Source: Ascidia mentula | Lineage: Eukaryota; Chordata; Ascidiacea; Phlebobranchia; Ascidiidae | Direction: 5' to 3' | DNA length: 64,000 nt | Assembly (NCBI GenBank): GCA_947561715.1 | Contig: OX387197.1 | Coordinates: 20,658,266-20,722,265, forward strand | Shown: positions 21,101-64,000 of the stretch, one piece after another | How positions within the stretch are numbered: the stretch's first letter is position 1 | Layout: each line of letters opens with the position of its first letter | Position numbers and translations under genes: made by a program | The notes under the pieces: generated by a model | Seen by the model: only the letters and a program-made list of their open reading frames with translations | What the model was told of the DNA's origin: nothing | Database searches by the model: none

Positions 21101-24100
21101 AAACGAATGTAAACAATATTTGCAGAATTTCATGGTTAAGGTGTTTTTTTTTTATTAAATAAAGAACATAATGCGTCAAGGAACCATCTTACCTGATTGT
21201 CTACCCTTTGTTGTAAATGTAATGATGAAAACTAGTACATTTGTGTGGGTAATTTTTTAATAAAATATTTAATAAAATAAAATAACAATTATTGCAACTG
21301 TACAAAAGGTAAAGAAAACTGTTGCTGCCCTCTATCTCCCTCTACTGTCGATAGCGATGAAAGCTTTGCCATTTGCTCACACATTTAATGAGCAAGAGAA
21401 ACAAGCAGTAGGCGATGATGGAATGGTAAGCTCTTCTGTTGCCTCTGCGATTGCAAGCCCTTCGCCACAACTTTCACGATCGAACACATCAGCTAACATC
21501 AGCACTGCTGTAAGTTGTTTGGACTTTTGTTTTGTTTTGTTATCGATCGTAAAGTGCGATTTCATTCAAGTTATCTCTTTTTTTTCTTTACAGCAAATGA
21601 GCACAGAAGGCACACGAAACCTACTTGTATGCTTTCTTTGGCTTCTCAAAAATACAGATGAAACTACTTTAAAGACGTGGTGGGTGGGGCTACCCCCTAC
21701 CAACTTGATCGCCATTCTTGATCTTCTCTACATTTCAGTATCATGCTTTGAGAATAAGGTGTGTGTAGGCGATGTATTGCAAATATACGGCCAATTGAAC
21801 ATATAGTTAAACTGCATACTAGTTAAAAAAAGTTCGGTTTCATGATGATGTCCAAGGTCTTTCTCAGGTGGGAGTTGCTTTTGGGAGGGGAGAGGGATCA
21901 AGAAATTCTGTCAAGAATACTGGAAGCAGGAAAAAAGATAACAAGAGTCGGTTGCAGGAGGCCATCCTCGGAGGATCTTCTGCTCGACAAGAACTCCTTG
22001 CACGAAGACGAGGAGCATCTGGAGGTTCGTGTGCGATTGACCGTGGCAGTCATTTGTTCTACCCACGCACGCGGTTAACAATGGGCGAGATAAGCCTGAG
22101 GACCGGGGATGGGCGCGCGCAACTGAAATGCTCTCCGGTATTGCGCATGGCATCTCGCACACGACCGCGGATGGGCGTGAGGCGGGCGAAAACGTTTCCC
22201 AGGGTCATGTGCATTTCGCGCGGCATAGGTGTGGATCCCAGCGTTCGGCCGCGCGGATTCGCGTACTCGTTGTTTGAAACAAGGGGCGCGCGTTTTCCTT
22301 CCACGGCCATTTAGTGGCCCTGTACATTCGCTCGGCTTTCGTCCATGCCTCGCATTTTGACATATATAGACGATGTTGGGAAGAAGACCTGCGCGCACTG
22401 CGAATGCGTGGCGGGCCTACACCAACACGCCATCAGCACACGACAGCCAGTAGACAAATTGAAAATATTTCGGACTTGGTCATTTTTAGGCTCTTGCCCA
22501 TTGTTAATTTCGCGCGGGTCGAAAAAGTGACGAATTCCAAAATTTTTGTAAGTGCTGAGCGGGCATTTTGCCTTAATGCGATGATGCTGCTATCCTCTCA
22601 CGTGCATTCCCAGTGCGCGCGGGCATTGTTTTGAACATCGAGTATGCGAAAACGCGCGGCCGGCCAGCGAGGCCTGGACATGGGCAGAACAAATGTACAG
22701 AGGGCCAATCAAAAGGTGTAGGCAAAAAATTGACTAAAGTCCGAAATTTTATCAAAGTACCAAACGGTGGTTGTGTGTGATGGCATGTTGCTGCAGGCCC
22801 CCCAGGCACATTTGCAGTGCGCGCGGGCATTGTTTTAAACATCAAGTATGCAAACACGCGCGGCCGGCCAGCGAGGCCTGGACATGGGCAGAACAAAGGT
22901 ACAGAGGGCCAATCAAAAGGTGTAGGCAAAAAATTGACTAAAGTCCGAAATTTTATCAAAGTACCAAACGGTGGTTGTGTGGTGATGGCATGTTGCTGCA
23001 GGCCCCCCAGGCACATTTGCAGTGCGCGCGGGCATTGTTTTAAACATCGAGTATGCGAAAACGCGCGGCCGGGCAGCGAGGCCTGGACATGGGCAGAACA
23101 AATCTACACGGCCACTCAAATAGACGAGTCGAAAAAATGACAAGGTTCCGAAATTTTATCAAAGTGCCAAACGGTAGTTGTGTGGTGATGGCATGTTGCT
23201 GCAGGCCCCCCAGGCACATTTGCAGTGCGCGTGGGCATTGTTTTAAACATTAAGTATGCAAACACGCGCGGCCGGCCAGCGAGGCCTGGACATGGGCAGA
23301 ACAAAGGTACAGAGGGCCAATCAAAAGGTGTAGGCAAAAAATTGACTAAAGTCCGAAATTTTATCAAAGTACCAAACGGTGGTTGTGTGGTGATGGCATG
23401 TTGCTGCAGGCCCCCCAGGCACATTTGCAGTGCGCGCGGGCATTGTTTTAAACATCAAGTATGCAAACACGCGCGGCCGGCCAGCGAGGCCTGGACATGG
23501 GCAGAACAAAGGTACAGAGGGCCAATCAAAAGGTGTAGGCAAAAAATTGACTAAAGTCCGAAATTTTATCAAAGTACCAAACGGTGGTTGTGTGGTGATG
23601 GCATGTTGCTGCAGGCCCCCCAGGCACATTTGCAGTGCGCGCGGGCATTGTTTTAAACATCAAGTATGCAAACACGCGCGGCCGGCCAGCGAGGCCTGGA
23701 CATGGGCAGAACAAAGGTACAGAGGGCCAATCAAAAGGTGTAGGCAAAAAATTGACTAAAGTCCGAAATTTTATCAAAGTACCAAACGGTGGTTGTGTGA
23801 TGATGGCATGTTGCTGCAGGCCCCCCAGGCACATTTGCAGTGCGCGCGGGCATTGTTTTAAACATCGAGTATGCAAAAACGCGCGGCCGGCCAGCGAGGC
23901 CTGGACGTGGGCAGAACAAATCTACACGGCCACTCAAGAGGTCTAGGCAAAAAATTGACTAAAGTCCGAAATTTTATCAAAGTACCAAACGGTGGTTGTG
24001 TGGTGATAGCATGTTGCTGCAGGCCCCCCAGGCACATTTGCAGTGCGCGCGGGCATTGTTTTAAACATCGAGTATGCGAAAACGCGCGGCCGGGCAGCGA

Positions 24101-27100
24101 GGCCTGGACATGGGCAGAACAAATCTACACGGCCACTCAAATAGACGAGTCGAAAAAATGACAAGGTTCCGAAATTTTATCAAAGTGCCAAACGGTAGTT
24201 GTGTGGTGATGGCATGTTGCTGCAGGCCCCCCAGGCACATTTGCAGTGCGCGCGGGCATTGTTTTAAACATCGAGTATGCGAAAACGCGCGGCCGGGCAG
24301 CGAGGCCTGGACATGGGCAGAACAAAGGTACAGAGGGCCAATCAAAAGGTCTAGGCAAAAAATTGACTCAAGTCCGAAATTTTATCGAAGTACCAAACGG
24401 TGGTTGTGTGGTGATGGCATGTTGCTGCAGGCCTCCCACGCACATTTGTAGTGCGCGCGGGCGTTGTTTTAAACATCGAGTATGCAAAAACCCGCGGCCG
24501 GCCAGCGATACCTGGACGTGGGCAAGGCACATGTACACGGCCAATCAAATGGTCTAGGCGAAAAAATGACAAATGCCGAAATTTTTGAAAAGTGTCAAAC
24601 GGTCTTTATGTGGTGATGGCATGTTGCTGCAGACCTCCCACGCACATTTGCAGTGCTCGCGGGCGTTCTTTTAAACATCAAGTATTCGAAAACGTGCGGC
24701 CGGCCACCTAGGCCTGGACGTGGGCAGAGCAAAGGTACAGAGGGCCACTAAAAAGGTCTAGGCGAAAAATTGACTAAAGTCCGAAATTTTATCGAAGTGC
24801 CAAACGGTGTTTGTGTGGTGATGGCATGTCGCGCAGGCCTTGTTTAAAGTGTATGCGAAGACATTCGTGGGGCTTGTGCGGACTTTTTGGGAGGGAATTT
24901 TGTATGAGATAATTTCAAACAATAACAATTACGAACCACAGTAACAGAGCAGCCAAACAGATTGCACCACGCTTGTACGTTGTATGGTTATAACTATCAT
25001 ATATGATAATTATCAATCAGATAAAGCCGCTACACTCGGTCATCAAGCGACTTCCAAGGACGTCTTAAGGTGGAATAAGAACAGAACCGAATGGAAGCAA
25101 GTAAAGCACGATGAGAGGATGAAGCAGGGATTGGAAGATTCGCTTATAGGAAGAAATTTTGCAGCAGGTTTGAGTTACTTTGTTAGAAAAATTAATAAAT
25201 GTGACGATAACTTATTCAAAGTGTGAATACAAAAAAACTTCTTTTTTATCATTAGTACATTTTAACCACGCAGTTTTTGTAATATTGTAACATTGCAGAG
25301 GCATCCATGATAATATTGGACACATTGGAACTGATAGTGAATACGGCCACTGAACTAAACGACGGTACAAGCACCTCCCAAATCCTCTCGTGTGCCCTGC
25401 GAGTCCTTCTTCAACTATTTGCCAAGCGACAAAGTGTGTCTGTCCTTCAACATATTTTCGCCATACAGCGGTCAATTGTTGCAAAGGTACCCCTGAAGTA
25501 AAAATATATTAGCAATCAAAAACTTTTTGCTGGCTTATAGTATTTTAACGCACTTGTTAATTTTTTTGCAGTTTCCCGAATTAGTTTTCGAGGAAGAGAC
25601 GGAGCAATGTGCTGATCTGACCTTACGGCTCCTGGAAAAATGCAGCAGCGGCAACGCATGCGTTAGAATGCACGCCTCCGCCTCACTATACATGCTTATG
25701 AGGCACAACTTTTCTCTGGGCAGCGTACGTCTCAGTAGATTTTGTGTGAATGAAGCATGTCGGTTTATTGTAAGTTGTCTTGTAGACTTTCGCGCGTGTC
25801 AAGATGCAAGTAACCATGTCCATGTCCGAGCTTGTGGGTGTTTCGCATAACTTTGAAGAAGAGTTTTTACGCCGTTCTTTGAAGACGGTCCTTTCATATG
25901 CTGAAATCGACTCCGAATTGGAGGGTACTTCATTTCCTGAACAGGTAGTTTATCTTGTCATGTATTAAAGAGTGCAATCTAACGTTGTTACCTGATAAGG
26001 TACGCGACCTCGTCTTCAACCTTCACATGATCCTGTCGGATACAGTCAAGATGAAAGAGCACAAAGAGGACCCGGAGATGTTGATTGATCTCATGTACCG
26101 GATTGCCAAGGGATACCAGAACTCCCCAGACTTAAGATTAACCTGGCTACAAAACATGGCCAACCAACATTCCGAGGTTAATGCAAAAATACAGTTTCAT
26201 TGTGAATACGTGTACTTACCGTACAATGTTATGCGAACTTTACGTTATCGCTGCAAACACATGCTCACTGTTCATCGGACAATTTAACCTAGAGTGTAGA
26301 ATTTCTCGGAGGTAACCGGGTGTCTGAAAAACAAATCAATGATATTTTCCAACAGCGTAAGAACCAGGCCGAAGCCGGCATGTGCTTGCTTCACTGCGCA
26401 GCTCTAGTTGCCGAGTACCTTTCAATGATGGATGACAAGTCGTACTTGCCGGTCGGATGCGTAACTTTCGAGGTGATTGATGTCTTTTTCCTCTTGTTCC
26501 CTTCAGTTGGCGCCTGTTTTTTTATATCATGCGGTACTTTTGGTAACTTTCAACATTTGTGCCTATTTTGACAAATGTCAAAAATCAGAGTAGGATAATA
26601 ATATCTACGGTATTTGAAACTACTTCCTTAACAAATAAAATGTTCACTTTCGGTTTCCAGAAAATCAGCGGAAACATATTGGAGGAGAGCGCGGTATCCG
26701 ATGACGTACTAACTTCCCACGCAGACGAAGTTTGTTCGGAAAAATATTTCTCACAGAACGGACTCACGGCTATACTGGAACAGGCTGTGCAGATCTTTCA
26801 GCTGGTAAGCTTCGTTGCATTTTTTGTTCCATCAATTGTAACCCGAAAAATGTAAGTTGGGTTTGATCGAACTCTTCCAATGTTCGTTTCACAGGGAGGT
26901 TTACATGAGGTTGTCGACATGATTTACCAAATTCTCATTCCCATCTATGAAAATAACAAAGACTACAAAAAACTTGCTCAGATACATGGCAAGTTACAGG
27001 AATGCTTTACCAAGATCAGTAGCCAGGTGTGTATTTGGTAATCGTTTAACTGTAGCTGTAGGAATTTTGAGTTTACTTCAAAAGCCCTGCGGCTGCTGTG

Positions 27101-30100
27101 GATGATTTTCTGTGTAATTTTTTGCTTGGTAGCTGTAGGTTTACGGGTGTGCAGCATGGTTGGTACGATTTTCTGCCCGGGCATCTTCCCCATGCCCGGG
27201 TTCTTTTTTGGTCAAAGACAACTTTTATGTAAAGTATTCAAAGAGTGAAAGAAACGCAACAGATTATTAATTGTCCGTTGTCGTAAGGCGAAGTATGCTT
27301 ATTCCGTAAACTTCAGTCGTGATTGAAAACGATTGCTACCAACCCTGGTGCGCAACCTTCACAAACAATATTACATTCACAAAAAGAAATTATCGTTGTA
27401 TCTGATTTTTATTGATTTCCTGATTAAGGTTTTATCAAAAAATGCAGGTTTCGTTTTAGTTTGACATCGTAAATGCCTCGTGCTATTTAGCATGGTAAAT
27501 CAAATGCCTTACTTAATTCTCAACTTTTAAGTTAATTATGTTTGATGAACTGAATGAATAACCTAGAGATGGTTTAATTCATTCGTCATTTAACCGATTG
27601 CTATAAAATTTGTTTGCCACTGATTTTTCATTTTACTCGTATATTTTTTGTTTTGTCGACGTGGCTTGGAACAGAGTTCGTACGGCGGCTGGGAGGTATG
27701 TCTCTGTCGCTTTTTTAGTTTTTGTTTCATAGGGCCTAATATTTATAAGTCTGTGCCCACTGAGGTGAAAAAATGTTAGTCGAATTCGAATTAATATAAT
27801 AGAGATAAATGAATGAGCTTCAATTTACAGAAAATAAAATATTTTCGGGCCTTGTTTGAATATTTTTAACTTGTCAGTCAGCTTGGATTTTGAGCATCAA
27901 TGCTGTTTTACAATATCCCAATTTGCAAATGCACGGTGAACAACGGGCGTAACTTGACTATAGGCTTGAAACAATAATCTCAAACAGTAGGTTAATTCAA
28001 ATTAACCTGCATGTCGTTTGCATCATAATCAATTTTGTTCATTGTTATTTTGTTTGACAAACCCGAACGCTGCTGATCCACATCGCCGGTGTAAACTGCA
28101 TTCAAATATTTGGTGAGTTAATTGCTTGCTTTGCATGTTCTTTGTTTGTTAGTTTTGTTTTATGATGCTGCACGTATAGAATTGCGTGGACTGTTTGCTT
28201 ATCACTTGCATCTAAATATCGCGGTGTGAAGGCAAGCGATTTTTAGCGCATATCGTACCGACATTGCCTTGAACGAAAGAAATAGTTGGTTTCCGTTTGC
28301 TTCAGATTGGAAAGAGGATGTTTGGAACATACTTTCGCGTCGGATTTTACGGAGCCAAGTTTGGTGATTTGAACGGGGAAGAATTCATCTACAAGGAACC
28401 AGCAATCACTAAACTCCCCGAGATATCACACCGTCTCGAGGTATACTAATTTAGTGTTATCTTTTTTTGCTGTGATAAATATCACATATAAATAAGTGCC
28501 ACGCCCTGCAGACCTTCTATAGCCAATGCTTTGGTGCGGAGAACATTGAAATGGTCAAAGATTCAAGTACAATCGACCCAGAATCACTTGATCCAGACAA
28601 GGCTTACATCCAAATCACATTTGTCGAACCTTACTTTTACGAATATGAAAACGCGCACAAGACTTCCTACTTTGACAGGTATTTGATCATGACCAATACT
28701 CTGCTATATGTCTGGAAGTTTCAGGTTTTACCCTGTAAAAGTCCAGAATGTCGTTCCGGAAAAAGAATTCTTGTCGGTACGCAGTTCCGGTAGAATTCAA
28801 CGGCTGGTGTGTCTTAATTAGTTAAAAAGAAAATTGAGTAAATGTAGAAATAATGGCTGATCCAGCTTGGCTGCAATGCCTTGGCTGCGAAGCCTGTGAA
28901 CCTTATTGAGTAAATGTATTCGCTTATTATAGAATTCTCACCCAGTATTCGAAAACACATTGCGTCATTTTTTCGTTTAAACTCAATCGTTCCGGTAAGA
29001 ATTTTTGTACCTTTAACACAGCTCGAAACATGTGTCTTGAGGCGCACAAAAACATGAACTTTATTGTTGTTTTAATTACTCATGTAACGCCATGTTGACA
29101 TTTGCAGAAACTTCAACATCGACAAATTTATGTACGCCACACCCTTTACCAAAGACGGCAAAGCTCACGGGGAGATGAAAGAACAATTCAAGCGCAAAAC
29201 ATTCCTACAAGTTTCCAACGCCTTTCCTTATATAAAGACGCGCATTAGCGTCATTAAGCGGTGAGTTAAGCGTCCATTATGTTGAAATAAGAACATATAC
29301 GTTATCATTGGTTGACCAATCGTTTTTTGCGGTGCCTCTTTGAATGTAACAAGTTAATGTAAGTGATATTTTTCTGAACTTTTGTTTTCCGGCATGAAAG
29401 TGTTTGTTATTTCGTGCAGATGGGAAACCGTTTTAACTCCCCTTGAATCGGCCTGTGAGGATGTAAAGAAAAAAACTACGCAGTTGTTAAAAGCGGTCAA
29501 CATGAATCCACCGGATGTTCGGATGTTACAAGTCAACTTACAAGGAGCTGTATTGACGTCGGTTAACCAGGTGAGTTTTAAAATGTTAAAGCATGGCTGT
29601 TTGTGATAGAACATGAGCTTAATTTTGGTTTCTTGTTTTTAGGGCCCTATGGAAGTTGCAAACACGTTTTTAACAGAAATTCCAGAGGAGTCCAAGTTAT
29701 GGGTCCATTACAACGAACTTCGATTATCGTTCCGCGAATTTGACCACGCGTAAGTGTATAATTAGTTCCTTGTAAATGTAGATGTCCCTTTTCTGTGTAG
29801 CTTTTGTTATGGAGTGTACCGTACTGTAGGCCCGTTACTACCATATTGTTTTAGTTCGACGACCCTTTTATCCCCCACCTGTAACTTTGCATAATTTTCG
29901 CAGTTGTTCTGTGGCATTAAAAAAGAACAAAAGTCTCATCAGCTCCGACCAGAAGGAATATCAGCGTGAGATGGAACGAAACTTTCACAAAATGTCTGAG
30001 AAGCTTAAATCCATGGTGAACGATCGGAAAGTCGTTCAGCAAATACTCGAAGCGAGCAGGTTGGAAAGCTTTTATTGTACTAAGCCAAATAGGGATATTT

Positions 30101-33753: not shown

Positions 33754-36115
33754 TCATCGAACCAAAACTTGAAGATATTTAGAAATGTTTACACTGATTT
33801 TTGCTTGTAACTGCAATGCATTAGATTTTGAAAAACTATACTCATGCGAGGAGTATACTAATTCATAACACAGGCTTGTTCTAGTCTTTGAAGGTGTGTC
33901 AGTTAAATGTTCAACATATTTGTCAGTAAGTTTCACTGATTTTAGCAAATCATCACATGTGTGTGAAAGAATTTCTAAAAAATTTTCTTCGGTAAACTCA
34001 ATTCTTCCATCATCTAAAAGATAAAATAACACTGTTAAAATAACATAAGAAGACACCTTTTTAAAAAAGCAGCAGATTTCAGAACCTTATCATATGTTAC
34101 TATAACATTTTACTGATACTTTAAAACTTACCGACTTCTTGTTTTGCCTTGGGATCCAAAATCCAAAAGCTTACATGAAAATTGTGAGAGGGAGGATATA
34201 ACGATTTTTGTTGGTAAGGTTGGTTGTTAGTACAGGATGCAGTCAATACACCTTGAGTTTCTGCTGAAAGTGACCAAAGTACATTCTTTTTCTTCTTGCC
34301 TAGTGCATGGACAAGCAAGCAAGATAAAATATCAATGTCAATAATCGTTGAACAAATTTTGAAGTCATCTTTGGTAAAAAATGAGCATGTGTATCCCAAA
34401 ACATCAGATGACCCATTGCTTTCTTTAATGTGAAGCAACTGAACAGAATGTTTTCGATGTGTTCCAAATTTTACCAAAAACCATAACAGTCCCAAGTAAA
34501 GGTTGTTGGAAAGTGATCTAGTTTTGCAAAATGTATGAATTTCATGGTGTGCATCTACATCATTATGATGTTGAAAATTTAATTCCTCCATAAAAGTACT
34601 TAGTTTTGGATTATGTTTATTAAATGTAGCCTGTAAAACATCTTGAATCAATGTTTCATGTTGGTCTTCTTTTGTTTTTTCTATAACCACCAATTCATAT
34701 GAGAAACTTGAAAGGTTGTTAAGTGAGGGTTTTGTCACAACATGATTTGATGCACAAAATATTCCTTGGTCTTTTGAATTTAAAATACTGCTGCATATAC
34801 ATTGGATTTCCAAGAATAATGAAGGACGAAGAGCATCAAACGTACAAAGCTCAGGTAAAGTATCATAGTAACTTAGAGCTAAAAAAGTTGATACACACTC
34901 CTTGCACAACTTTGACAAGTTCATTTTCACATGGTGACTTGTTTGGAGGTAAGTTTGAACTGCTTTGGATGTGAAATGGTCGTACATACTATTGTTTCTT
35001 TGAATTTGCTCACAGATTGTCTTGACAAAAAACTTTTGTGGAAACAAGTACTCGTCCTTAGCTTTATTAACTAGTCTTCTACCAATCCCTGATGGTAACA
35101 TGTCTTCTTTTAGGTGTTGCACAAGTCCACTTTTCCAACCTTAAGATAAAACATCCAACAGAAGTCCAGTTACATACGCGTACAACAAGAAACAAGTAGC
35201 AAATTAAACACAATCAATAAGAAAACTAAAAATCCACCTTCATTTAACATTGGTGGTTGAGCATATTTGACAAACGTATGTGTTCTTGCGCCAGCAATGT
35301 TAAACACATTTCCAGCTCCTCTTCTTCCAGTGCTCACGTAACCATTCAATGGAGTAAATTTGACAACATCCATCAAAATAAATCCTCCTTGTGTAGCCAT
35401 ATCAACTATCTTTGAACAACAACAATAAATCTGGTTTACATGTGAAAAAAAAGAAGTGTCACAAATGGACGTAGTCACCTGCCAGTGATTGCATTTTTCT
35501 CTTTGGTAACTGTCAGCTGGAGTTCCCCCCTGACCAGCACAAAGGGTAACTTCGACCTTTCCATCATTTTGTATAACTTTTGACACAGATTCAAAAAAGT
35601 TCCGCAGCAGGGCTCTATCCCAAAGTACCACATGATTTAATGTGAAAAAAAAAGAATAAAAAAACTGGATCAATTTAAAAACCGAAGGCCCCTGGCAGGC
35701 TGTCGAGCGATCACACACCATATCAATATAATTATATTTGTGGAATTTAACATACAATTACACCACATGATTATTTAATAAATGCACACAAAAAAATAAT
35801 AGATTCATGCCTGTTCAACTTGATGCCAGCTTTTCGTCCAATATGTGGAAAGTTGAATATTACTCTTCGAATTTTCAGGGTGTCTCTAATAGATGGATAC
35901 TCTTCAAGACGTGTGGCATCAATGGAATGAATAATTTGACAACCCATTTGTTTAAGCACCTTTAAGTTTGTAATTACTGTTTTGCCATACTTCTTTATGC
36001 AAGTATCACAATCCTCAAAAGATGTTGCAATTATCTTCTCCTGCGGAGACGTTGTTCCATTTTGTGCCAACGATGCACTGAATGAAAAATTGCCATCACC
36101 GAGTACTAAAATCAT
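33754..36115 (-). CDS. FDXACB1: Ferredoxin-fold anticodon-binding domain-containing protein 1
   Basis: Five exons: 36115-35811, 35614-35479, 35409-35238, 35139-34132 and 34013-33754. They total 626 residues, close to the vertebrate length. The N-terminal third is the BMT5-like Rossmann domain (LVLGDGNFSFSASLA at residues 3-17, FNFPHIGRKAGIKLNR, then AGQGGTPAD). This fold is related to rRNA methyltransferases. The C-terminal FDX-ACB domain starts at YPPSHNFHVSFWI near the end of exon 4 and continues through EENFLEIL and SLCYELVY, as in phenylalanyl-tRNA synthetases. Function in animals is poorly known. The start is the first ATG of the open frame; upstream in-frame codons lack an ATG. The exon 1 donor must be AG|GCATGA, a GC-AG intron. 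It shares a divergent promoter with TYSND1. Confidence 0.93.
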
Positions 36116-36258: not shown

Positions 36259-37914
36259 ATGCAGAAGAGCAAGAAAAGCATGGCTGCAAACTCACGAAAC
36301 GTTTTTTGCTTTCCTTGTTCAGTGACTGCAAGTTGCGATGTTTCAAAGTCGGAAGATCGGTTAACAGAAATATGGAGCGGATTTGGAATAACAGAAAATG
36401 CAAAAGACGCGTTTGTTGTTACTCATCTGCTACCGTTGGTTAAGTTTGTGTCGTGTGAAAGCATTTCAAACATTTACAACAAACAATCATGCTTATTGGG
36501 TGACCAATTACCCGGTGTAACCTTTCAATGCAATCTGTATAAAAGTGGACAAACATTTTTCACTATTGAAGCAACTCCATTATGTGCTTGGAAATGTGCA
36601 AGATTTGACAATTTGCTAAAAAATATATCTTCAAACATTCCTGAAAATAAGAACAGTGAACCACCCTGTTGCAAGTCACATTTGTCAAACAACTTCTTGT
36701 CCTGGGCTATGCTCCTAAAAATTAATTTGCAATTGCCAATTACTGCTAATGAAGGTGTCAGACATGGAATTGTAGGTAGAAGTGTTAATTTGAGACAGGG
36801 CAATTACTTGTGGGTTCAATCCCACCCATTTGGCCCAACAACAAAAGGCATTTTTTCAGGCTGCCTGACAACAGGCATATTGTCAAACATTGTCCAAGAT
36901 TCTTTGTTGCTTACTGATGCGTGCTGCCTTCCTGGTTCTGAAGGTGCACCAGTTTTTACACATTCAAATGAGCTTATTGGTATGGTTGTGTCACCCCTTG
37001 CCATGAAATCTGGTGATTTATCAGGTTTAACCTTTATTTGCTCATGGCCTGAAATTGTTTCATCCTTTTATTCATCAGCACTTTGTCATATGGTAAAGTT
37101 TGTGGATTTTGGAAATGTGTTTTTTGACATGAAATTTGTAAAGCATCATCCATCACCAACTGTGGTACAGATGAAGCATATGAAGGGGTGGGGTTCTGGT
37201 ATAGTTGTGGCTGTGGACAAGTGTACATCCAATCCCTCTTTCTTTGTTGTCACATGCTGTCATGTTGTACAACCAGCAGACCAACATGTGTTGCATATAC
37301 GGGTTGGTTACGATTCAGATCATAGCAGGTGGTTTCAAGGTTTGGTTGTGTATGTTGCACCACCATCCTGGTTTGATTTTGCATTAGTTCAAGTGAGGTG
37401 TAATGTTTCTACAATTGACTACCTTTTTGCCAACATTCATTTTGACAATGCTACAGAGACTGTTGCTACAATTCCATATTGTAAGGACCCAAGAAGTGGC
37501 ATTGAGGTGTATGCAAAAGGACATTGTTTGTTTGAAAACATTGCAATGCTGCCAACAATTACCAGTGGAATTTTGTCCAGTGTAGCTTATGAAGAAGGTA
37601 AACTTGCTGTTCTCTTGCATTCAACTTGTGTAGTTCATGACGGAGCAAGTGGTGGTGCTTTAGTGTCTTATGCAACAGGGGATCTTCTCGGATTGATTGT
37701 AAATAATGTTAAGGAGACTAATGAAAGTGAGGCAACCATTTTGTATCCCAAAGTAAACTTTAGCCTTCCGGCTATGTTGTTCATGCCAGTTATTGAGGAA
37801 TATTTACTGGGTAATAAAAATGCTCTTAATAAAATTAAACATCTTTCGTCCATTGAATGTGATGTTTGGAAATTAAATGAAAATGAGTTATCTGTTCCAA
37901 AGGCAAACCTGTGA
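36259..37914 (+). CDS. TYSND1: Peroxisomal leader-peptide processing protease (trypsin-like)
   Basis: A single exon encodes 551 residues (human about 566). The C-terminal half is a trypsin-like domain with His335 (VTCCHVVQ), Asp373 (WFDFALVQV) and Ser464 (DGASGGALVS), the complete triad. The N-terminal half is a diverged protease-like repeat (PGSEGAPVFTHS near residue 230), as in known TYSND1. The enzyme trims PTS2 leader peptides and cuts acyl-CoA oxidase and other peroxisomal enzymes. The C-terminus is VPKANL. KANL is a non-canonical PTS1, the form used by catalase, where vertebrate TYSND1 has SKL. The gene is followed 200 bp downstream by DDX31 on the same strand. A second in-frame ATG at 36280 is possible. 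Confidence 0.93.
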   Translation: MQKSKKSMAANSRNVFCFPCSVTASCDVSKSEDRLTEIWSGFGITENAKDAFVVTHLLPLVKFVSCESISNIYNKQSCLLGDQLPGVTFQCNLYKSGQTFFTIEATPLCAWKCARFDNLLKNISSNIPENKNSEPPCCKSHLSNNFLSWAMLLKINLQLPITANEGVRHGIVGRSVNLRQGNYLWVQSHPFGPTTKGIFSGCLTTGILSNIVQDSLLLTDACCLPGSEGAPVFTHSNELIGMVVSPLAMKSGDLSGLTFICSWPEIVSSFYSSALCHMVKFVDFGNVFFDMKFVKHHPSPTVVQMKHMKGWGSGIVVAVDKCTSNPSFFVVTCCHVVQPADQHVLHIRVGYDSDHSRWFQGLVVYVAPPSWFDFALVQVRCNVSTIDYLFANIHFDNATETVATIPYCKDPRSGIEVYAKGHCLFENIAMLPTITSGILSSVAYEEGKLAVLLHSTCVVHDGASGGALVSYATGDLLGLIVNNVKETNESEATILYPKVNFSLPAMLFMPVIEEYLLGNKNALNKIKHLSSIECDVWKLNENELSVPKANL

Positions 37915-38114
37915 TTGTTGCAATATTTGTGTGCTAGTTAGTTAATATTCTGTTTTAGCAATGCTATGCAATATACGTTGTTCTCATGAACTAATGCTGT
38001 AATTTCTTATATTAAATTAATGTTTTTTTTCTTTTCATAGGTTTGTTTCGAACAAGTATGTATTTATTTTCTAGGTCTGTACAATAGTTGTTAAACATAG
38101 TGCCTTTGAAAAAA
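37915..38114 (+). promoter_or_regulatory. TYSND1-DDX31 intercistronic region with splice acceptors
   Basis: Within 200 bp there are two strong 3' splice sites: TTTTTTTCTTTTCATAG ending at 38040 and TATTTTCTAG ending at 38074. No matching donor for an upstream exon is evident. Such sites before a start codon fit spliced-leader trans-splicing of the DDX31 message. The alternative is an untranslated first exon whose donor lies in or upstream of TYSND1. Confidence 0.5.
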
Positions 38115-40457
38115 ATGGATGATATTACATTGAATCTTTCTTTAGCACTATCTGTACCGGTGAAGAAACATAAACGACATGTGAAAGGCATTGTTAACAG
38201 AAAAAAACGTATTGAGGCAAGAAGAAAGCTGAAAAAGAGAATTTTAAAATTTGGTGAAATTTCATCAAAAGGCTCAAATGAATCAATTGATATGGAGAAT
38301 GACAACAATGAAAATGGACTGCAGGCAGGTTTAAGTAAAACACAAAACCAGAGAAGTCGCACTCTGAAATCAAAATCAATTTTTTCTGGTAATCCTGACA
38401 TTCCAGAACTTAATCTAACCAAACTTCGACCAGAAACCCACAAAGACAGCAAGTTTTCAGGAGATAAATTTAGCAACATTGATATTCATTCTGGATTAAA
38501 GGCCTACATTGTAGAAAAGATGGAACTTGAGGAAATGACACCTGTTCAATCTCTCACCATCCCTTTGTTATTTGCAGGCCATGATGCATTAATAAGATCA
38601 CAAACAGGTTCTGGCAAAACCTTGGCATATGCTTTGCCTATAATCCAAAGCTTGCAAGCTATCAGGCCTGAGGTAACAAGACAGAATGGTCCATTGGCTA
38701 TCGTCCTCACACCAACTCGGGAACTCACACAACAAAGCTTCGGAGTTTTTCAGCAACTTACACTGCCAATTCGGAGAATAGTTGCTTCATGGTTTGTTGG
38801 TGGAGTAAGTAGAAAGTCAGAAAAGGCCCGGGTTCGTAAAGGCATCAATATATTGGTTTCAACACCTGGTCGATTTGTTGACCATTTGGAAAACACATCC
38901 TGTCTTACCTTAGAGAATGTAAAGTGGTTGGTTTTTGACGAAGCTGACCGTTTGTTGGATATGGGCTTCCAGAAAGACATAAACAGAGTTCTAAAAGAAA
39001 TTAAGACACAGTGCAATGAAAAACCTCAAATTGTGCTTCTTTCGGCGACCTTGAATAAGGGTGTCGAAAATTTGGTTGACTTGGCTCTATCGAACCCAAG
39101 ACGGGTTGACATAAATGAAAAACACTTATCTGACAATAGTAGCATGGCATTTGTTAATCCTTCAACTGGTCTTAAAGTTGAAAAAGTGTCATTACCAGAG
39201 CAACTCAAGCAACGTATTGTTGTGGTACCCACTAAATTGCGGTTGGTTACCCTTTTATCATTCATTATGAAAAAAATGAAATCTTCAAATTTGCTTGTAT
39301 TTCTCTCTTGTCGAGATTCTGTTGAATTTCATTGTCAGCTTCTTAAATACTTTCTTGCAAAAGAAATTCAGTCTGGGATGGAAAAAAAAGTCTTGCAACT
39401 TCATGGTGGAATGATGCAGGCAGAAAGAACAGAAGTAGTAACAAAGTTTAAAAAAAGTAACTACAGTGTATTGTTATGTACAGATGTTGCTGCAAGGGGT
39501 CTGGACTTTCCACATGTTAATTGGGTTGTACAATACACCAGTCCAGGTAGTCCTGCTGACTATATACACCGGGTAGGACGTACTGCACGGGCTGGAAAGA
39601 ACGGAAATGCCATACTTTTTCTTACTCCAGTTGAAGCCCCATATGTTAAGCTTCTTGGCAATTATGACATTGCAGTTGATGAATTAAAGGTGGATGATAT
39701 TTTGGTTGGTTTGCTATCTGCCAATTCAATGAAATATCAAGAAAATCTAAGGTAGCTTGCAGTAAATTTTCTACTGTTTCATTTAAAATGTTACCAGTTT
39801 AAGTTTATACAAATTATGACACATAGTTGTACAATATGTGCACCAATGTAATATGAAGTGTTTACCCTCAAGGTTACAACTGATCCAAGAGAAAGCTGCT
39901 GAAACTCACAGAAAATTGGAAGCATTTGTAAGCGAAAACAAAATTTTAAAGGAATGCGCCTCTAGTGCATTTCTTGCATTTGTGCGGGCATATGCGACTT
40001 ATCCGTCGACTCTCAAGCACATTTTTCATGTCAAAAACCTTCACATTGGACATGTGGCTAAAAGTTTTGCTCTTCAGGTATTTTGGCTTCTCTTGTAATC
40101 ATTATGTTTGCATTTGCATATTAGGTTTATTGATATATTGACAAAAAGGTACTTTACTATAAAACTATGTATAAAACACATTTACAGGATACACCAAATG
40201 ACGCAATCAAGCATCTTCAGAGAACAGTGGGACAGAAAGCTGTGCAACAAATGCAAGAAAAGAAACTCAACAACAAAAGAAAAATGTTGAAGACCAAGCA
40301 AGGGCAAAGTAACACTGGTACAAGAAAGACTTCCAAAGCAAACAGACTGCAAAAGCCATTAAAACGGCATCCTATTGTTGCCAAATTTGATCTCTTGTCC
40401 GAATTTAGCAGTGGCATTGAAGAAATACCATTACCAAAACGTATGAAGTCAAAATAA
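38115..40457 (+). CDS. DDX31: DEAD-box RNA helicase DDX31 (yeast Dbp7 orthologue)
   Basis: Three exons (38115-39751, 39873-40077, 40188-40457) encode 703 residues. Motifs in order: Q motif (MTPVQS), I TGSGKT (164-169), Ia PTRELTQQ, DEAD (275-278), SAT (310-312), GGMMQAERTEV region, DVAARGLDFP, and VI HRVGRTARAG (from 485). The DDX31-specific C-terminal extension follows (AFVRAYATYP, HVKNLHIGHVAKSFAL), then a Lys-rich tail. The protein acts in the nucleolus in 60S ribosomal subunit assembly. The start is the ATG at 38115 (MDDITLNLSLALSVP); the open frame extends nine codons upstream without another ATG. It converges on ZBBX with 23 bp between the stop codons. Confidence 0.95.
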
Positions 40458-60700: not shown

Positions 60701-61318
60701 ATTACAAAAACTTACAAACAAAACAAGGTTTAAATTGTACATACCAGTTGAATAAACTGTCCGGGGACAATAGTAAAACGTACCAAAGTGGAGGTCGGAT
60801 AGTGCACATTGGAATTGAAAATTGAAGCAGGCACTAAAAGAAACATAAAAAAAAAAAAAAACAGTAAACAAAAATTTAAATCAAACAAAAGACAAACTAT
60901 ATTCCTTGCAGAGTGCGCTAAATAGATAAAAAAAAAAAAATTAAAGTAAGAGCGGATACCATGTTTAAGGGGAAAAACCTGCGTAGACCTGCGTCATCAT
61001 TTTCGCGTTCCGCGCGATTGAATTCACGTCATCATTAGTTAATTTGGCTTATTTAGGCTGTTTATTTAGGCTGTTTATTTAATTGCATTATCAATCTTAT
61101 TTTTTATAGTCAATTACTGTGAAAAAAATAGCAAGAAAATGCTCCAACAAAAAAGTTGAAAATCATTCGCAAACGACCTAGTTGAAGATCGGGGTGTCGT
61201 AATCACTAGAGCAGTATTTTCACTGCGATTTGTTGAGAGTAAGCCTCAAGATCTGTCGATTTGTCCGCAAGGGCGGGCGCAAAAGGAGCGACTCTGCATG
61301 CCTGTTGGCGTGCGGGGT
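57771..61318. other. AT-rich gene-poor region
   Basis: There is no gene I can support. A short plus-strand frame near 60184-60318 has coiled-coil-like composition (EKEKLKLKVELELVRKFQ, ending KRQEK stop) without an ATG or exon context, perhaps a relic. Poly(A) runs occur near 60848-60862 and 60930-60942. Confidence 0.45.
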
Positions 61319-61397
61319 CGCTTCTTCTTTTTTTTTTGAAATTTTTTTTGGAAAAAAAAACCAAGTCCGACGATCGGCTTTTTTTTTTTTTTTTTGA
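61319..61397. repeat. T/A-rich low-complexity tract at the array border
   Basis: Runs of T, A and T again end in a 17-base T tract just before GTTAACAATGGG. It marks the sharp change from AT-rich DNA to the GC-rich spacer array. A T tract upstream of rDNA can act in Pol I termination, but that is speculation here. Confidence 0.6.
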
Positions 61398-62960
61398 GTT
61401 AACAATGGGAAGGATAGGGGCGGGGGGTCGTTGGGCCGCGCGCGCCCAACCCTGTCCGCGCGCGTGCAACTGAATTGTGGTCCGGATGGCGCACGGCATC
61501 GCTTACAACGACGTCACAGCCCCGCCGGTCGCACTTGCACGGTTGGTCGTGGGCAGGCAAAAACCAGGAGGCTGTTTTCCAGGAGGCTGTGCATTTCGCG
61601 CGGCCTAGGTTGTGGGCCATGCCGGCCGGCCGCGCGGATTCGCGTACTCGATGTCTGAAACAAGGTGCGCGCGCACTGCGAATGCGTGTGGCAGGCCTGC
61701 AGCCACAGGCCATCAGCCAACGACCGTTGTTTGGCACTTTGAAAAAATTTGGGACTCTGTCGTTTTTTTGCCCGGCCATTTCGCTTGGCCTGTACATTTG
61801 CGCGGCCAGTAGTGTGACCCTGTACATTCGCGCGGCCTAGGTTGTGGGCTCGCCGGCCGGCCGCGCGGATTCGTGCACTCGATGTTTGAAACAAGGTGCG
61901 CGCGCGCTGCGAATGCGTGTGGCAGGCCTGCAGCCACAGGCCATCAGCCAACGACTGTTGTTTGGCACTTTGAAAAAATTTGGGACTCTGTCGTTTTTTT
62001 GCCCGGCCATTTCGCTTGGCCTGTACATTTGCGCGGCCAGTAGTGTGGCCCTGTACATTTGCACGACCAGCGTCCAGGCCTCGCCGGCCGGCCGCGCGGA
62101 TTCGCGTACTCGATGTTTGAAACGAGGCCCGCGCGCACTGCGAATGCGTGTGGCAGGCCTGCAGCAACAGGCCATCAGCCAACGACCGTTGTTTGGCACT
62201 TTGAAAAAATTTGGGACTCTGTCGTTTTTTTGCCCGGCCATTTCGCTTGGCCTGTACATTTGCGCGGCCAGTAGTGTGGCCCTGTACATTTGCACGACCA
62301 GCGTCCAGGCCTCGCCGGCCGGCCGCGCGGATTCGCGTACTCGATGTTTGAAACGAGGCCCGCGCGCACTGCGAATGCGTGTGGCAGGCCTGCAGCAACA
62401 GGCCATCAGCCAACGACCGTTGTTTGGCACTTTGAAAAAATTTGGGACTCTGTCGTTTTTTTGCCCGGCCATTTCGCTGGCCCTATGCATTTGCGCGGCC
62501 AGTAGAGTGGCCCTGTACATTCTCACTCGCGCGAGCCAAAAAAGTGACAGAGTCCCAAATTTTTTCAAAGTGCCAAACGGCGGTCGTTGGCTGATGGCCT
62601 GTTGCTGCAGGCCTGCCACACGCATTCGCAGTGCGCGCGCACCTTGTTTCAAACATCGAGTACACGAATCCGCGCGGCCGGCCGGCGAGCCCACAACCTA
62701 GGCCGCGCGAATGTACAGGGTCACTCTACTGGCCGCCCAAATGTACAGGGCCAGCGAAATGGCCGGGCAAAAAAACGACAGAGTCCCAATTTTTTACAAA
62801 GTGCCAATCAACGGTCGTTGGCTGATGGCCTGTTGCTGAAGGCCTGTCACACGCATTCGCAGTACGCGCGGGCCTCGTTTCAAACATCGGACGCGCGAAA
62901 ACGCGCGGCCGCCCGGCGAGGCCTGGACCCTGGACGCGCGAACGTACAGGGACACGCCAA
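61398..62960. repeat. rDNA-upstream (intergenic spacer) array with inverted halves
   Basis: About four forward units of period 231 bp (GCCGGCCGGCCGCGCGG...CGATGTTTGAAAC...GCAGGCC...TTGGCACTTTGAAAAAATT) run to about 62520. Then a junction CTCACTCGCGCGAGCC leads into about two inverted units (62540-62950). The first and last arms (61840s and 62700s) are near-perfect inverted copies. Because 231 is divisible by three, both strands carry long frames (up to 299 codons), which are artefacts. The array lies directly before the 18S gene. Confidence 0.93.
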
Positions 62961-63526
62961 TGAGGAAAAACGACGGATTTTCTCTGAAGAGTTGTGTGTC
63001 GTTGGCGTGTTGGCGTCGCACACCCGCGGCTCGCACTCGCACAAGGTGGCCGCCTTGTAAACCAGCGCGCGCGGACGGACAGACAAACAAACAAACCTGC
63101 AGGAGACCCGAGCGAGTTTCGTGCGTCACGAGGAAGTGGGTGTCTCGCGGTGGACGCAGAACCGTTCCAGCCCTACTATGTGGGGCAACCCACACTGGAT
63201 GGGTGAAACGCGCTCGCGTGCGTTTTCTACCGCCTGTAGGCGCGCGGCTCGCTGAGCAGATGTGCTGCTGCTCGTACGACGCCGGTCGCTTTCACGGGGT
63301 GTCCCATCGCAAGCGTTCGGTACAGTTGCCAGCCTCGCCGGTGAGCATACGCCGACCCGCTCTCGTTTTCGACTGCGGTCGGCGCTGCCGGCGTCGGTGA
63401 CGGTTTTCCGAGTTCGCGCGGCGAACCAAGCAAAGAGTGTCGGTCGGTGGGTCGCGTCCTCGCGGGCGTCGGACCCGGTGCGTGAAAAGGCGGCGGCCTC
63501 GTGCCGCCCAGCCCAGCTCTCGTAGC
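62961..63526 (+). promoter_or_regulatory. Pol I promoter region and 5' external transcribed spacer
   Basis: GC-rich unique sequence lies between the spacer array and the 18S start. By position it must hold the Pol I start site and the 5' ETS. No conserved promoter motif can be named, since these differ between species. Frames here are not protein genes. Confidence 0.65.
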
Positions 63527-64000
63527 TACCTGGTTGATCCTGCCAGTAGTCATATGCTTGTCTCAAAGATTAAGCCATGCAAGTCTAAGTACGCGCTCTC
63601 GTACAGTGAAACTGCGAATGGCTCATTAAATCAGTTATGGTTCATTTGATCGTACATCGTACGTGGATACCTGTACAAAATCTAGAGCTAATACATGCGG
63701 CAGGCGCCTGCCTCGCGGCGGGCGTGCATTTATCAGTCCAAAAACCGACCGGGCCGGCCTCGCGTCGCGCCCGACACGTGTTGGTGACTCTGGATAACTC
63801 AGCGGATCGCACGGTCTCGCACCGGCGACGGATCATTCAAGTGTCTGCCCTATCAACTTTCGTCGGTAGGGTATCGGCCTACCGAGGTTCTTACGGGTGA
63901 CGGGGAATCAGGGTTCGATTCCGGAGAGGGAGCCTGAGAAACGGCTACCACATCCAAGGAAGGCAGCAGGCGCGCAAATTACCCATTCCCGACGCGGGGA
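63527..64000 (+). rRNA. 18S ribosomal RNA, 5' part
   Basis: It begins with the universal eukaryotic start TACCTGGTTGATCCTGCCAG and continues through GTCATATGCTTGTCTC, AAGATTAAGCCATGCAAG and GAAACTGCGAATGGCTC. About 474 nt are present to the window edge, ending in the AAATTACCCATTCCCGAC region. It is cut off by the window, not by the gene. Confidence 0.99.

Follow-up and report, generated by a model that had tools for sequence, protein, structure and literature searches.

A tandem array related to the rDNA spacer in a DOCK gene intron of Ascidia mentula

An rDNA-spacer origin has been proposed for satellites of several organisms, and intermediate stages are hard to catch. The tomato satellite derived from the intergenic spacer (IGS) is a tandem array in which one subrepeat type was amplified and its neighbours were lost (Jo et al. 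2009, PMC2679016). The locus described here shares the apparent birth in the IGS and the amplification of a single subrepeat type, but the tomato work is FISH-based and involves a retrotransposon in the 18S gene, whereas here a 2.8-kb intron array retains an inversion junction. The IGS repeats at centromere 3 of Drosophila melanogaster (PMC6516634) also have a single origin, lie outside the rDNA loci and form a variant of their own; they are centromeric and CENP-A-associated, in contrast to an intronic array on the rDNA chromosome. The As51 satellite of characiform fishes is likewise dispersed and proposed to derive from the 45S IGS, although it went into heterochromatin, and the abstract of that study mentions no intron array (PMC13170303). 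Intronic satellite arrays are represented by the 1.688 satellite in Drosophila Netrin introns (PMC7642928), whose euchromatic copies have diverged further than those in heterochromatin and are concentrated on one chromosome, with spread by extrachromosomal DNA mentioned. These traits have parallels here, but the passages on these arrays do not describe 1.688 as derived from rDNA spacer. In Lepidoptera the spread of rDNA is tied to IGS satellites through ectopic recombination or rDNA circles, but there whole rDNA loci move rather than a spacer fragment entering an intron (PMC10257491); a further study treats transposons in rDNA (PMC12235515). No IGS array within the intron of a protein gene turned up in a literature search, which covered mostly titles and abstract openings and is no proof of absence. 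Satellites derived from the IGS are already known away from rDNA, and the present block adds a case that has an unusual architecture and is unusually well preserved.

The window, which is the whole 64-kb stretch of A. mentula DNA analysed here, contains a DOCK6-like gene, which we take to belong to the DOCK6/7/8 subfamily. The block lies in a phase 1 GT-AG intron of this gene on the plus strand (22025..25020; GT at 22025, AG at 25020), and the rDNA array has its edge 36 kb away. The reading frame is open across the exon join, and the joined product is colinear with the PDB entry 'Dedicator of cytokinesis protein 6' (E 1.9e-11) in a match that crosses the join, which supports the original reading that the block sits inside a DOCK intron. 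A Pfam search of the two joined exons returned 0 families, and it was a longer peptide that gave the DOCK6 match in PDB. Matches to DHR-2 lobe B follow 3′ of the intron at 28563-28682 and 29082-29219, the second of which is interrupted by one in-frame stop.

At the right end of the window, also on the plus strand, the left edge of the rDNA array is formed by the last ~100 bases of a 28S gene (61157..61262). An Rfam search of the window itself gave no 28S call at this position; the edge is placed from stretch L062, in which 918-1135 matches 61160-61379 at 97.7% and 645-1020 is the LSU rRNA 3′ end (RF02543). The spacer then runs through a head (61399..61620), a forward array of 231 bp x 3.9 (61621..62526), the inversion junction TCGCGCGAGCCAAAAAAGTGAC (62527..62548) and inverted units (62538..62962, two units by model; by repeat period 231 bp x 1.8 at 62537-62955) to the 5′ part of the 18S rRNA gene (63527..64000; RF01960, 415.7 bits). 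The unit model finds four forward and then two inverted units, versus three inverted units in each of nine other rDNA loci modelled. A search for close copies of the IGS head elsewhere found none and also missed the head in the DOCK intron, and within the array much of the IGS that precedes the units is given as N in the assembly.

The DOCK intron block has the same succession of parts, namely a head, a CATTTCGCGCGGC block, a forward unit, an inversion junction and inverted units. Its head (22061..22130, plus strand) is a fragment of a satellite of contig C1 (TTAACAATGGGCGAGATA...) running into IGS head sequence. The CATTTCGCGCGGC block with a forward-unit fragment (22194..22292, plus strand) is homologous to 61574-61673 (blastn, 82.5% over 103 columns, E 1.4e-23), CATTTCGCGCGGC itself lying at 22212 in the intron and 61592 in the IGS. 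The forward unit (22306..22487) is a minus-strand match to the inverted-orientation unit model (135.2 bits) and has 73.1% identity to a junction-proximal IGS unit. The junction spacer (22488..22521, plus strand) includes TTTCGCGCGGGTC and, in inverted orientation, a CCCATTGTTAA fragment of the satellite. It is 34 bp long, and its IGS counterpart 75 bp; the junction motif lies at 22510 in the intron and at 62527 in the IGS. Eleven full inverted units of 202-205 bp each follow on the plus strand (22522..24764), and a partial, decayed last unit (24765..24865) is covered by the model to 24840, the right limit of homology at ~24865 being set by eye. The tandem period is 205 bp x 10.9 (22611-24839), and the unit model reports a unit and a fragment in forward orientation, followed by 11 units and a fragment in the inverted array. 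No rRNA genes are present at the intron locus, the sole Rfam gathering match in the window being the 18S gene at 63527.

We noted previously that the intron carries a copy of the spacer array in identical order, and alignment upholds this. The intron (22025-25020) matches 61157-63526 with a best blastn E of 4.8e-118, including 22371-23286 against 62658-61615 at 66.4%, and the heads (22074-22250 against 61398-61625) align with a score of 131.5, which none of 300 dinucleotide shuffles reaches (maximum 74.5). The homology is ordered and includes non-repeat parts. The leading GTTAACAATGGG segment, said to be common to both, is not specific to rDNA, as it is a monomer motif of an abundant C1 satellite (28,370 sites). 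The noted periods of 205 and 231 bp are also confirmed, the difference being accompanied by an internal 30-bp tandem duplication in the IGS unit. Four alignment columns separate five junction-proximal rows from 13 other rDNA-type rows; at three of these columns all 11 intron rows carry the junction-proximal state, and at the fourth one of 11 does. But some forward IGS rows come nearly as close to the intron units (80.0% at full length, 81-82% for two truncated rows) as the junction-proximal rows do (79.0-82.1%).

The inverted intron units form a separate lineage. In the unit tree they make up one group (10 rows, 11 units; support 97/92), and the other copies outside the rDNA locus group with rDNA units. 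This tree has no root, and support is poor for 15 of the 26 inner branches, so it does not fix the direction of copying. All eight sites diagnostic of intron-type units are in the DOCK intron, and these units average ~76% identity to rDNA units. The eight central units are 90-100% alike, and for the first and eleventh the likeness to other units is 78-88%, so that a homogenised middle lies between decayed edges. The proposal that about eleven inverted units amplified on their own is supported. With its homology to the IGS, its array away from rRNA genes and its own homogenised lineage, the block shares these properties with IGS-derived satellites outside rDNA; evidence that it came from the IGS and not the other way round is indirect.

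Copies were sought across the readable assembly, outside N stretches and within the allowed mismatches. The junction occurs at 13 sites, all on C1: the rDNA locus has ten and the DOCK intron one, and the remaining two belong to pieces of IGS located at 16.66 and 16.98 Mb. A unit pattern is likewise confined to C1 (61/61; control 0), with 42 sites in rDNA, 10 in the DOCK intron, eight at 16.62-16.98 Mb and one at 25.21 Mb, and so is a second, IGS-type pattern (55/55, as 46, eight and one) that is absent from the DOCK intron.

The likely explanation is an old IGS insertion into the DOCK intron followed by growth of the array in place. The IGS segment copied into the intron would have reached from the satellite-like head across forward units and junction into the inverted units. 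It most likely arrived when repair of a chromosome break captured spacer DNA, with either broken rDNA in cis or an extrachromosomal rDNA circle as the source. The forward part, cut off from rDNA homogenisation, would have decayed to about 73% identity, and unequal exchange or slippage would have enlarged the inverted part to the eleven-unit array with its homogenised centre. The array is presumably spliced out with the intron and probably has no function of its own. Of the two origins first offered, spacer copied into a gene is the better supported, by the conserved order, the junction-proximal states, the other IGS fragments outside the rDNA and a duplication-flanked insertion in a likely P450 intron (below), and from these we infer the direction of copying; a composite mobile element gains no support.

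That a satellite-bearing mobile element inserted in both IGS and intron is very unlikely. TTAACAATGGGC and its inverse bound the forward part of the block and resemble inverted ends with TTAA, but the bounding motif is the satellite monomer, for which reason the inverted TTAACAATGGG was dropped as a candidate for transposon ends. The outside copies, of which four kinds can be judged (DOCK intron; L059 and L061, one shared piece; L062; L063), start and stop at different IGS points, and this lack of common ends disfavours such an element; L060, with N on its left and a continuation into 18S on its right, was left out of the comparison. Two block ORFs gave no Pfam family, a result compatible with a non-autonomous element, and no target duplication is recognisable at the block (longest word common to the flanks 7 bp), where age may have erased it. 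Somewhat less improbable, though still unlikely, is independent seeding of IGS and intron by an existing C1 satellite, either the one that forms a large array around 15.4-17.0 Mb or a relative since lost, with neither copied from the other. The satellite does resemble the intron head (score 52.5; 0/300 shuffles, maximum 41.5) and an inverted fragment of it lies at the intron junction (0/300), and this satellite surrounds the pieces of IGS found at 16.6-17.0 Mb. However, the roughly 200-bp unit in the four stretches there (L059-L062) occurs in all four in pieces with rRNA-gene, ETS or 28S-flank sequence, and head, junction and unit order agree with the IGS, as do the junction-proximal states of the intron units. 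Scores of the satellite against the 28S-flank part of the IGS (reached by 14/300 and 3/300 shuffles) and a forward-unit piece (2/300) are dominated by T-runs. Under the preferred reading of an IGS insertion, the fit of the first ~60 bases of the intron head to the satellite suggests that IGS with satellite already attached may have served as donor.

Wrong joining of spacer reads into the DOCK gene is extremely improbable; rDNA and satellites are error-prone in assemblies, but the intron-type units are found nowhere else, differ from rDNA units as given above and are flanked by a continuing DOCK frame, although the array length could still be wrong. We also consider it very unlikely that the array is maintained by selection, whether as a spacer enhancer of Pol I type or as a nucleolar tether. 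The intron units are oriented as promoter-proximal IGS units, and one IGS unit shows a weak likeness to the stretch that separates the array from 18S (score 63; 0/200 shuffles, maximum 59), but a second, in L060, scores only 50 in a comparison made without shuffles, and a promoter origin of the unit was rejected on these weak likenesses. Functional constraint was rejected as well, as the units show no excess conservation: their longest identical run (14) is reached by 4518/5000 permutations and their best 40-column window by 1511/2000.

In addition to the presumably old DOCK insertion, a likely P450 intron, identified by its downstream exon (p450, E 2.5e-10), holds 328 bp with 96.6% identity to window positions 62723-63050. 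Perfect direct repeats of 24 bp flank this piece, and their sequence occurs only at these two places with up to two mismatches allowed. This IGS piece is younger than the DOCK block and of the same general kind. Several stages are seen on one chromosome: the young insertion with its duplication, fragments of rDNA lodged in a large satellite, and the older DOCK insertion, which turned into an array and kept the donor's forward-junction-inverted layout. It is conceivable, though rather doubtful, that spacer DNA leaves the rDNA array preferentially in cis, seeding the DOCK and P450 introns and becoming entangled with the megabase satellite, and so acts as a chromosome-limited self-spreading repeat rather than as a rare accident. 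Should related species show the same restriction to C1, it would provide a countable system for the escape of spacer from concerted evolution. The P450 insertion also has an 11-bp filler and may represent another route.

In the 195.8-Mb assembly (79 contigs) the window corresponds to positions 20658266-20722265 of contig C1, which also carries the rDNA, and the satellite-bearing block lies within an intron at 22025-25020 of the window. This intron has a GT donor and an AG acceptor, with the frame open over the joined exons; the peptide spanning the join is colinear with the PDB entry 'Dedicator of cytokinesis protein 6' over residues 21-120 of 137 (E 1.9e-11), and downstream there are two matches to DHR-2 lobe B (28563-28682, and 29082-29219 with one stop within the matched stretch). 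The original prediction of a DOCK gene with the block in one of its introns is therefore borne out.

The intron contains a tandem array (22611-24839; period 205, 10.9 copies, 91%), and the intergenic spacer (IGS) upstream of the 18S gene (a eukaryotic SSU rRNA beginning at 63527) includes a forward array with a period of 231 (61621-62526) followed by an inverted array (62537-62955). By a unit model, the intron has a forward unit and a forward fragment, followed by eleven inverted units plus a fragment, and the window IGS has four forward and two inverted units. The model covered nine further rDNA loci, leaving out two more near 20.760 and 20.935 Mb, and each of the nine has three inverted units and an upstream part that is mostly unreadable; a large part of the rDNA array consists of N. 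The core common to the units is ~196 columns, the 231-bp IGS unit contains a 30-bp tandem duplication (TRF rows 61998-62070, 62229-62301 and 62701-62765), and in L060, an IGS fragment outside the rDNA locus, the two units lie at a spacing of 201 bp. The rDNA array starts in the window with the last ~100 bases of a 28S gene (61157-61262).

Comparison of the intron with 61157-63526 by blastn gives a best E of 4.8e-118, and outside the units the intron head (22074-22250) aligns with 61398-61625 at a score of 131.5, reached by none of 300 shuffles (maximum 74.5); without the CATTTCGCGCGGC block the alignment scores 82.5 against a shuffle maximum of 57.5 (0/300). However, the head also fits a satellite of TTAACAATGGG monomers (score 52.5, shuffle maximum 41.5, 0/300), so that the leading segment, although common to intron and IGS as predicted, is a satellite monomer joined to the IGS and by itself no evidence of rDNA origin. 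An inverted TTAACAATGGGC satellite fragment is present at the intron inversion junction (22488-22521), where the IGS has other sequence, and scores 35.5 against the satellite (shuffle maximum 29.5, 0/300). The palindrome at this junction has decayed in the intron, with arms 68.6% alike versus 89.8% in the IGS.

The satellite perhaps forms one ~1.5-Mb array on the rDNA contig (C1:15.43-16.98 Mb), with rDNA fragments (L059, L061 and L062) embedded in it. TTAACAATGGGMGASATAGG has 28,370 sites at ≤1 mismatch, positions being listed for about the first hundred, with sites on other contigs possible; the spacing would be one per 55 bp if every site lay within 15.43-16.98 Mb. A longer, rarer variant has 33 sites, all on C1 at 15.43-16.59 Mb.

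A maximum-likelihood tree was built from 29 distinct units, which stand for 57 units (≥150 bp) in 16 sequences after identical units were collapsed and shorter pieces dropped. The ten rows of inverted intron units (11 units) group together (97/92; recovered in 97% of 200 bootstrap trees), as do the 18 rDNA-type rows, among them the outside copies (98/93). A long branch (0.28) leads to the intron forward unit, and support is weak for 15 of the 26 inner branches. The intron inverted units average ~76% identity to IGS units and the intron forward unit 70-71%, compared with 87.5-93.6% for the other outside copies. Four columns set five junction-proximal inverted rows, from units adjoining the inversion junction, apart from the 13 other rDNA-type rows, and the intron rows (10 inverted, 1 forward) carry the junction-proximal state in 11/11 cases at three of these and in 1/11 at the fourth. 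The intron consensus shares 79.0-82.1% identity with the junction-proximal rows, 80.0% with one full-length forward row, 81-82% with two truncated forward rows and 74-78% with all others. These column states and identities thus make units flanking the junction on either side the best candidates for closest relatives of the intron units. Transfer from rDNA to intron is supported, not proved; the tree is unrooted.

Within the intron, identity among the eight central units (22724 to 24153) is 90-100%: the units at 23336 and 23541 do not differ over the core, the one at 22724 matches each of them at 100%, and those at 22928 and 23949 share 99.5% although five units apart. Identity to the other units is 78-88% for the first and eleventh and 78-91% for the tenth. 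Compared with a junction-proximal IGS unit, the forward unit is 73.1% alike, the first inverted unit 74.5%, and central ones 78.8-81.5%. An alike centre with decaying edges is what exchange in mid-array usually produces.

Genome-wide counts, valid up to the stated mismatches, place the junction motif (≤2 mismatches) at 13 sites: ten in the rDNA locus, two at 16.66 and 16.98 Mb, and one in the intron. All 61 sites of a 35-base unit pattern designed to fit both intron and IGS versions (≤3 mismatches) are on C1: the rDNA locus has 42, the intron 10, the stretch at 16.62-16.98 Mb 8 and 25.21 Mb 1. Controls for the motif and for this pattern gave 0. An intron-type pattern has eight sites, all within the intron. 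A second, IGS-type pattern has 55 sites, again all on C1 (46, 0, 8 and 1, respectively), and since it is blind to the intron, copies elsewhere of equal age would be missed too. C1 is 14.3% of the assembly, and the chance of all three non-rDNA groups (intron, 16.6-17.0 Mb, 25.2 Mb) falling on it is 0.003, assuming independent placement; the distance from the end of the block to the rDNA edge is 36.3 kb. Both figures are suggestive only, because the pattern was spotted post hoc and the window preselected.

Among the other copies, L059 (16.62 Mb) and L061 (16.81 Mb) have 1577 identical bases in common and are a duplication inside the satellite region, counted as one event. By blastn their shared rearranged piece comprises the 18S 5′ end, ETS and two unit stretches, with this 18S absent from Rfam matches at the gathering threshold. 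L060 contains the junction, two units, ETS and 18S, and L062 has the 28S 3′ end (RF02543), 28S flank, forward units and junction, then satellite. At 25.21 Mb, L063 includes 328 bp of IGS/5′ETS matching window 62723-63050 at 96.6%. In this insertion (1338-1723; C1:25207837-25208222) perfect 24-bp direct repeats flank the insert, together with an 11-bp filler. The insert starts with the final base of one 24-bp copy and stops 11 bp short of the second; the 24-bp word occurs in exactly two places with ≤2 mismatches allowed. The host site probably lies in a P450 intron (downstream exon, p450 E 2.5e-10; upstream exon read by eye). This young rDNA-spacer insertion shows that IGS DNA entered a likely intron in this genome with duplication of the target.

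Most likely, a stretch of IGS, supplied by rDNA in cis or by an rDNA circle, was captured where the DOCK intron had broken and then amplified locally. The first kind of step can be seen elsewhere in the P450 insertion and the last in the array pattern; the repair route is one we infer. For Lepidoptera, rDNA is proposed to have spread through ectopic recombination and extrachromosomal rDNA circles (PMC10257491), and a paper on Drosophila 1.688 mentions extrachromosomal DNA (PMC7642928). IGS-derived satellites are already known, being described in tomato (PMC2679016), at Drosophila centromere 3 as IGS repeats in a paper also citing plant cases (PMC6516634), and in characiform fishes as As51 (PMC13170303); satellite arrays inside introns are described for 1.688 (PMC7642928). 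The DOCK block combines the two and retains the donor's forward-junction-inverted layout; its architecture is unusual. Several stages can usefully be seen together on one chromosome.

Along the unit, conservation is clustered no more than by chance, which gives no sign of function. Between array and 18S, window 62998-63130 is weakly similar to one IGS unit (score 63; 0/200 shuffles, maximum 59), and another unit scores only 50 against the array-18S region; the IGS units look as if they were old promoter-region duplicates, although the similarity is weak. Protein-coding ORFs with Pfam families occur ~20 kb from the start of the rDNA array; between DOCK and rDNA, at 34-40 kb, there are a BMT5-like rRNA methyltransferase fragment (35170-35757, minus strand), an ORF with a Trypsin_2 domain (36259-37914, plus strand) and a DEAD-box helicase ORF (38088-39755, plus strand).
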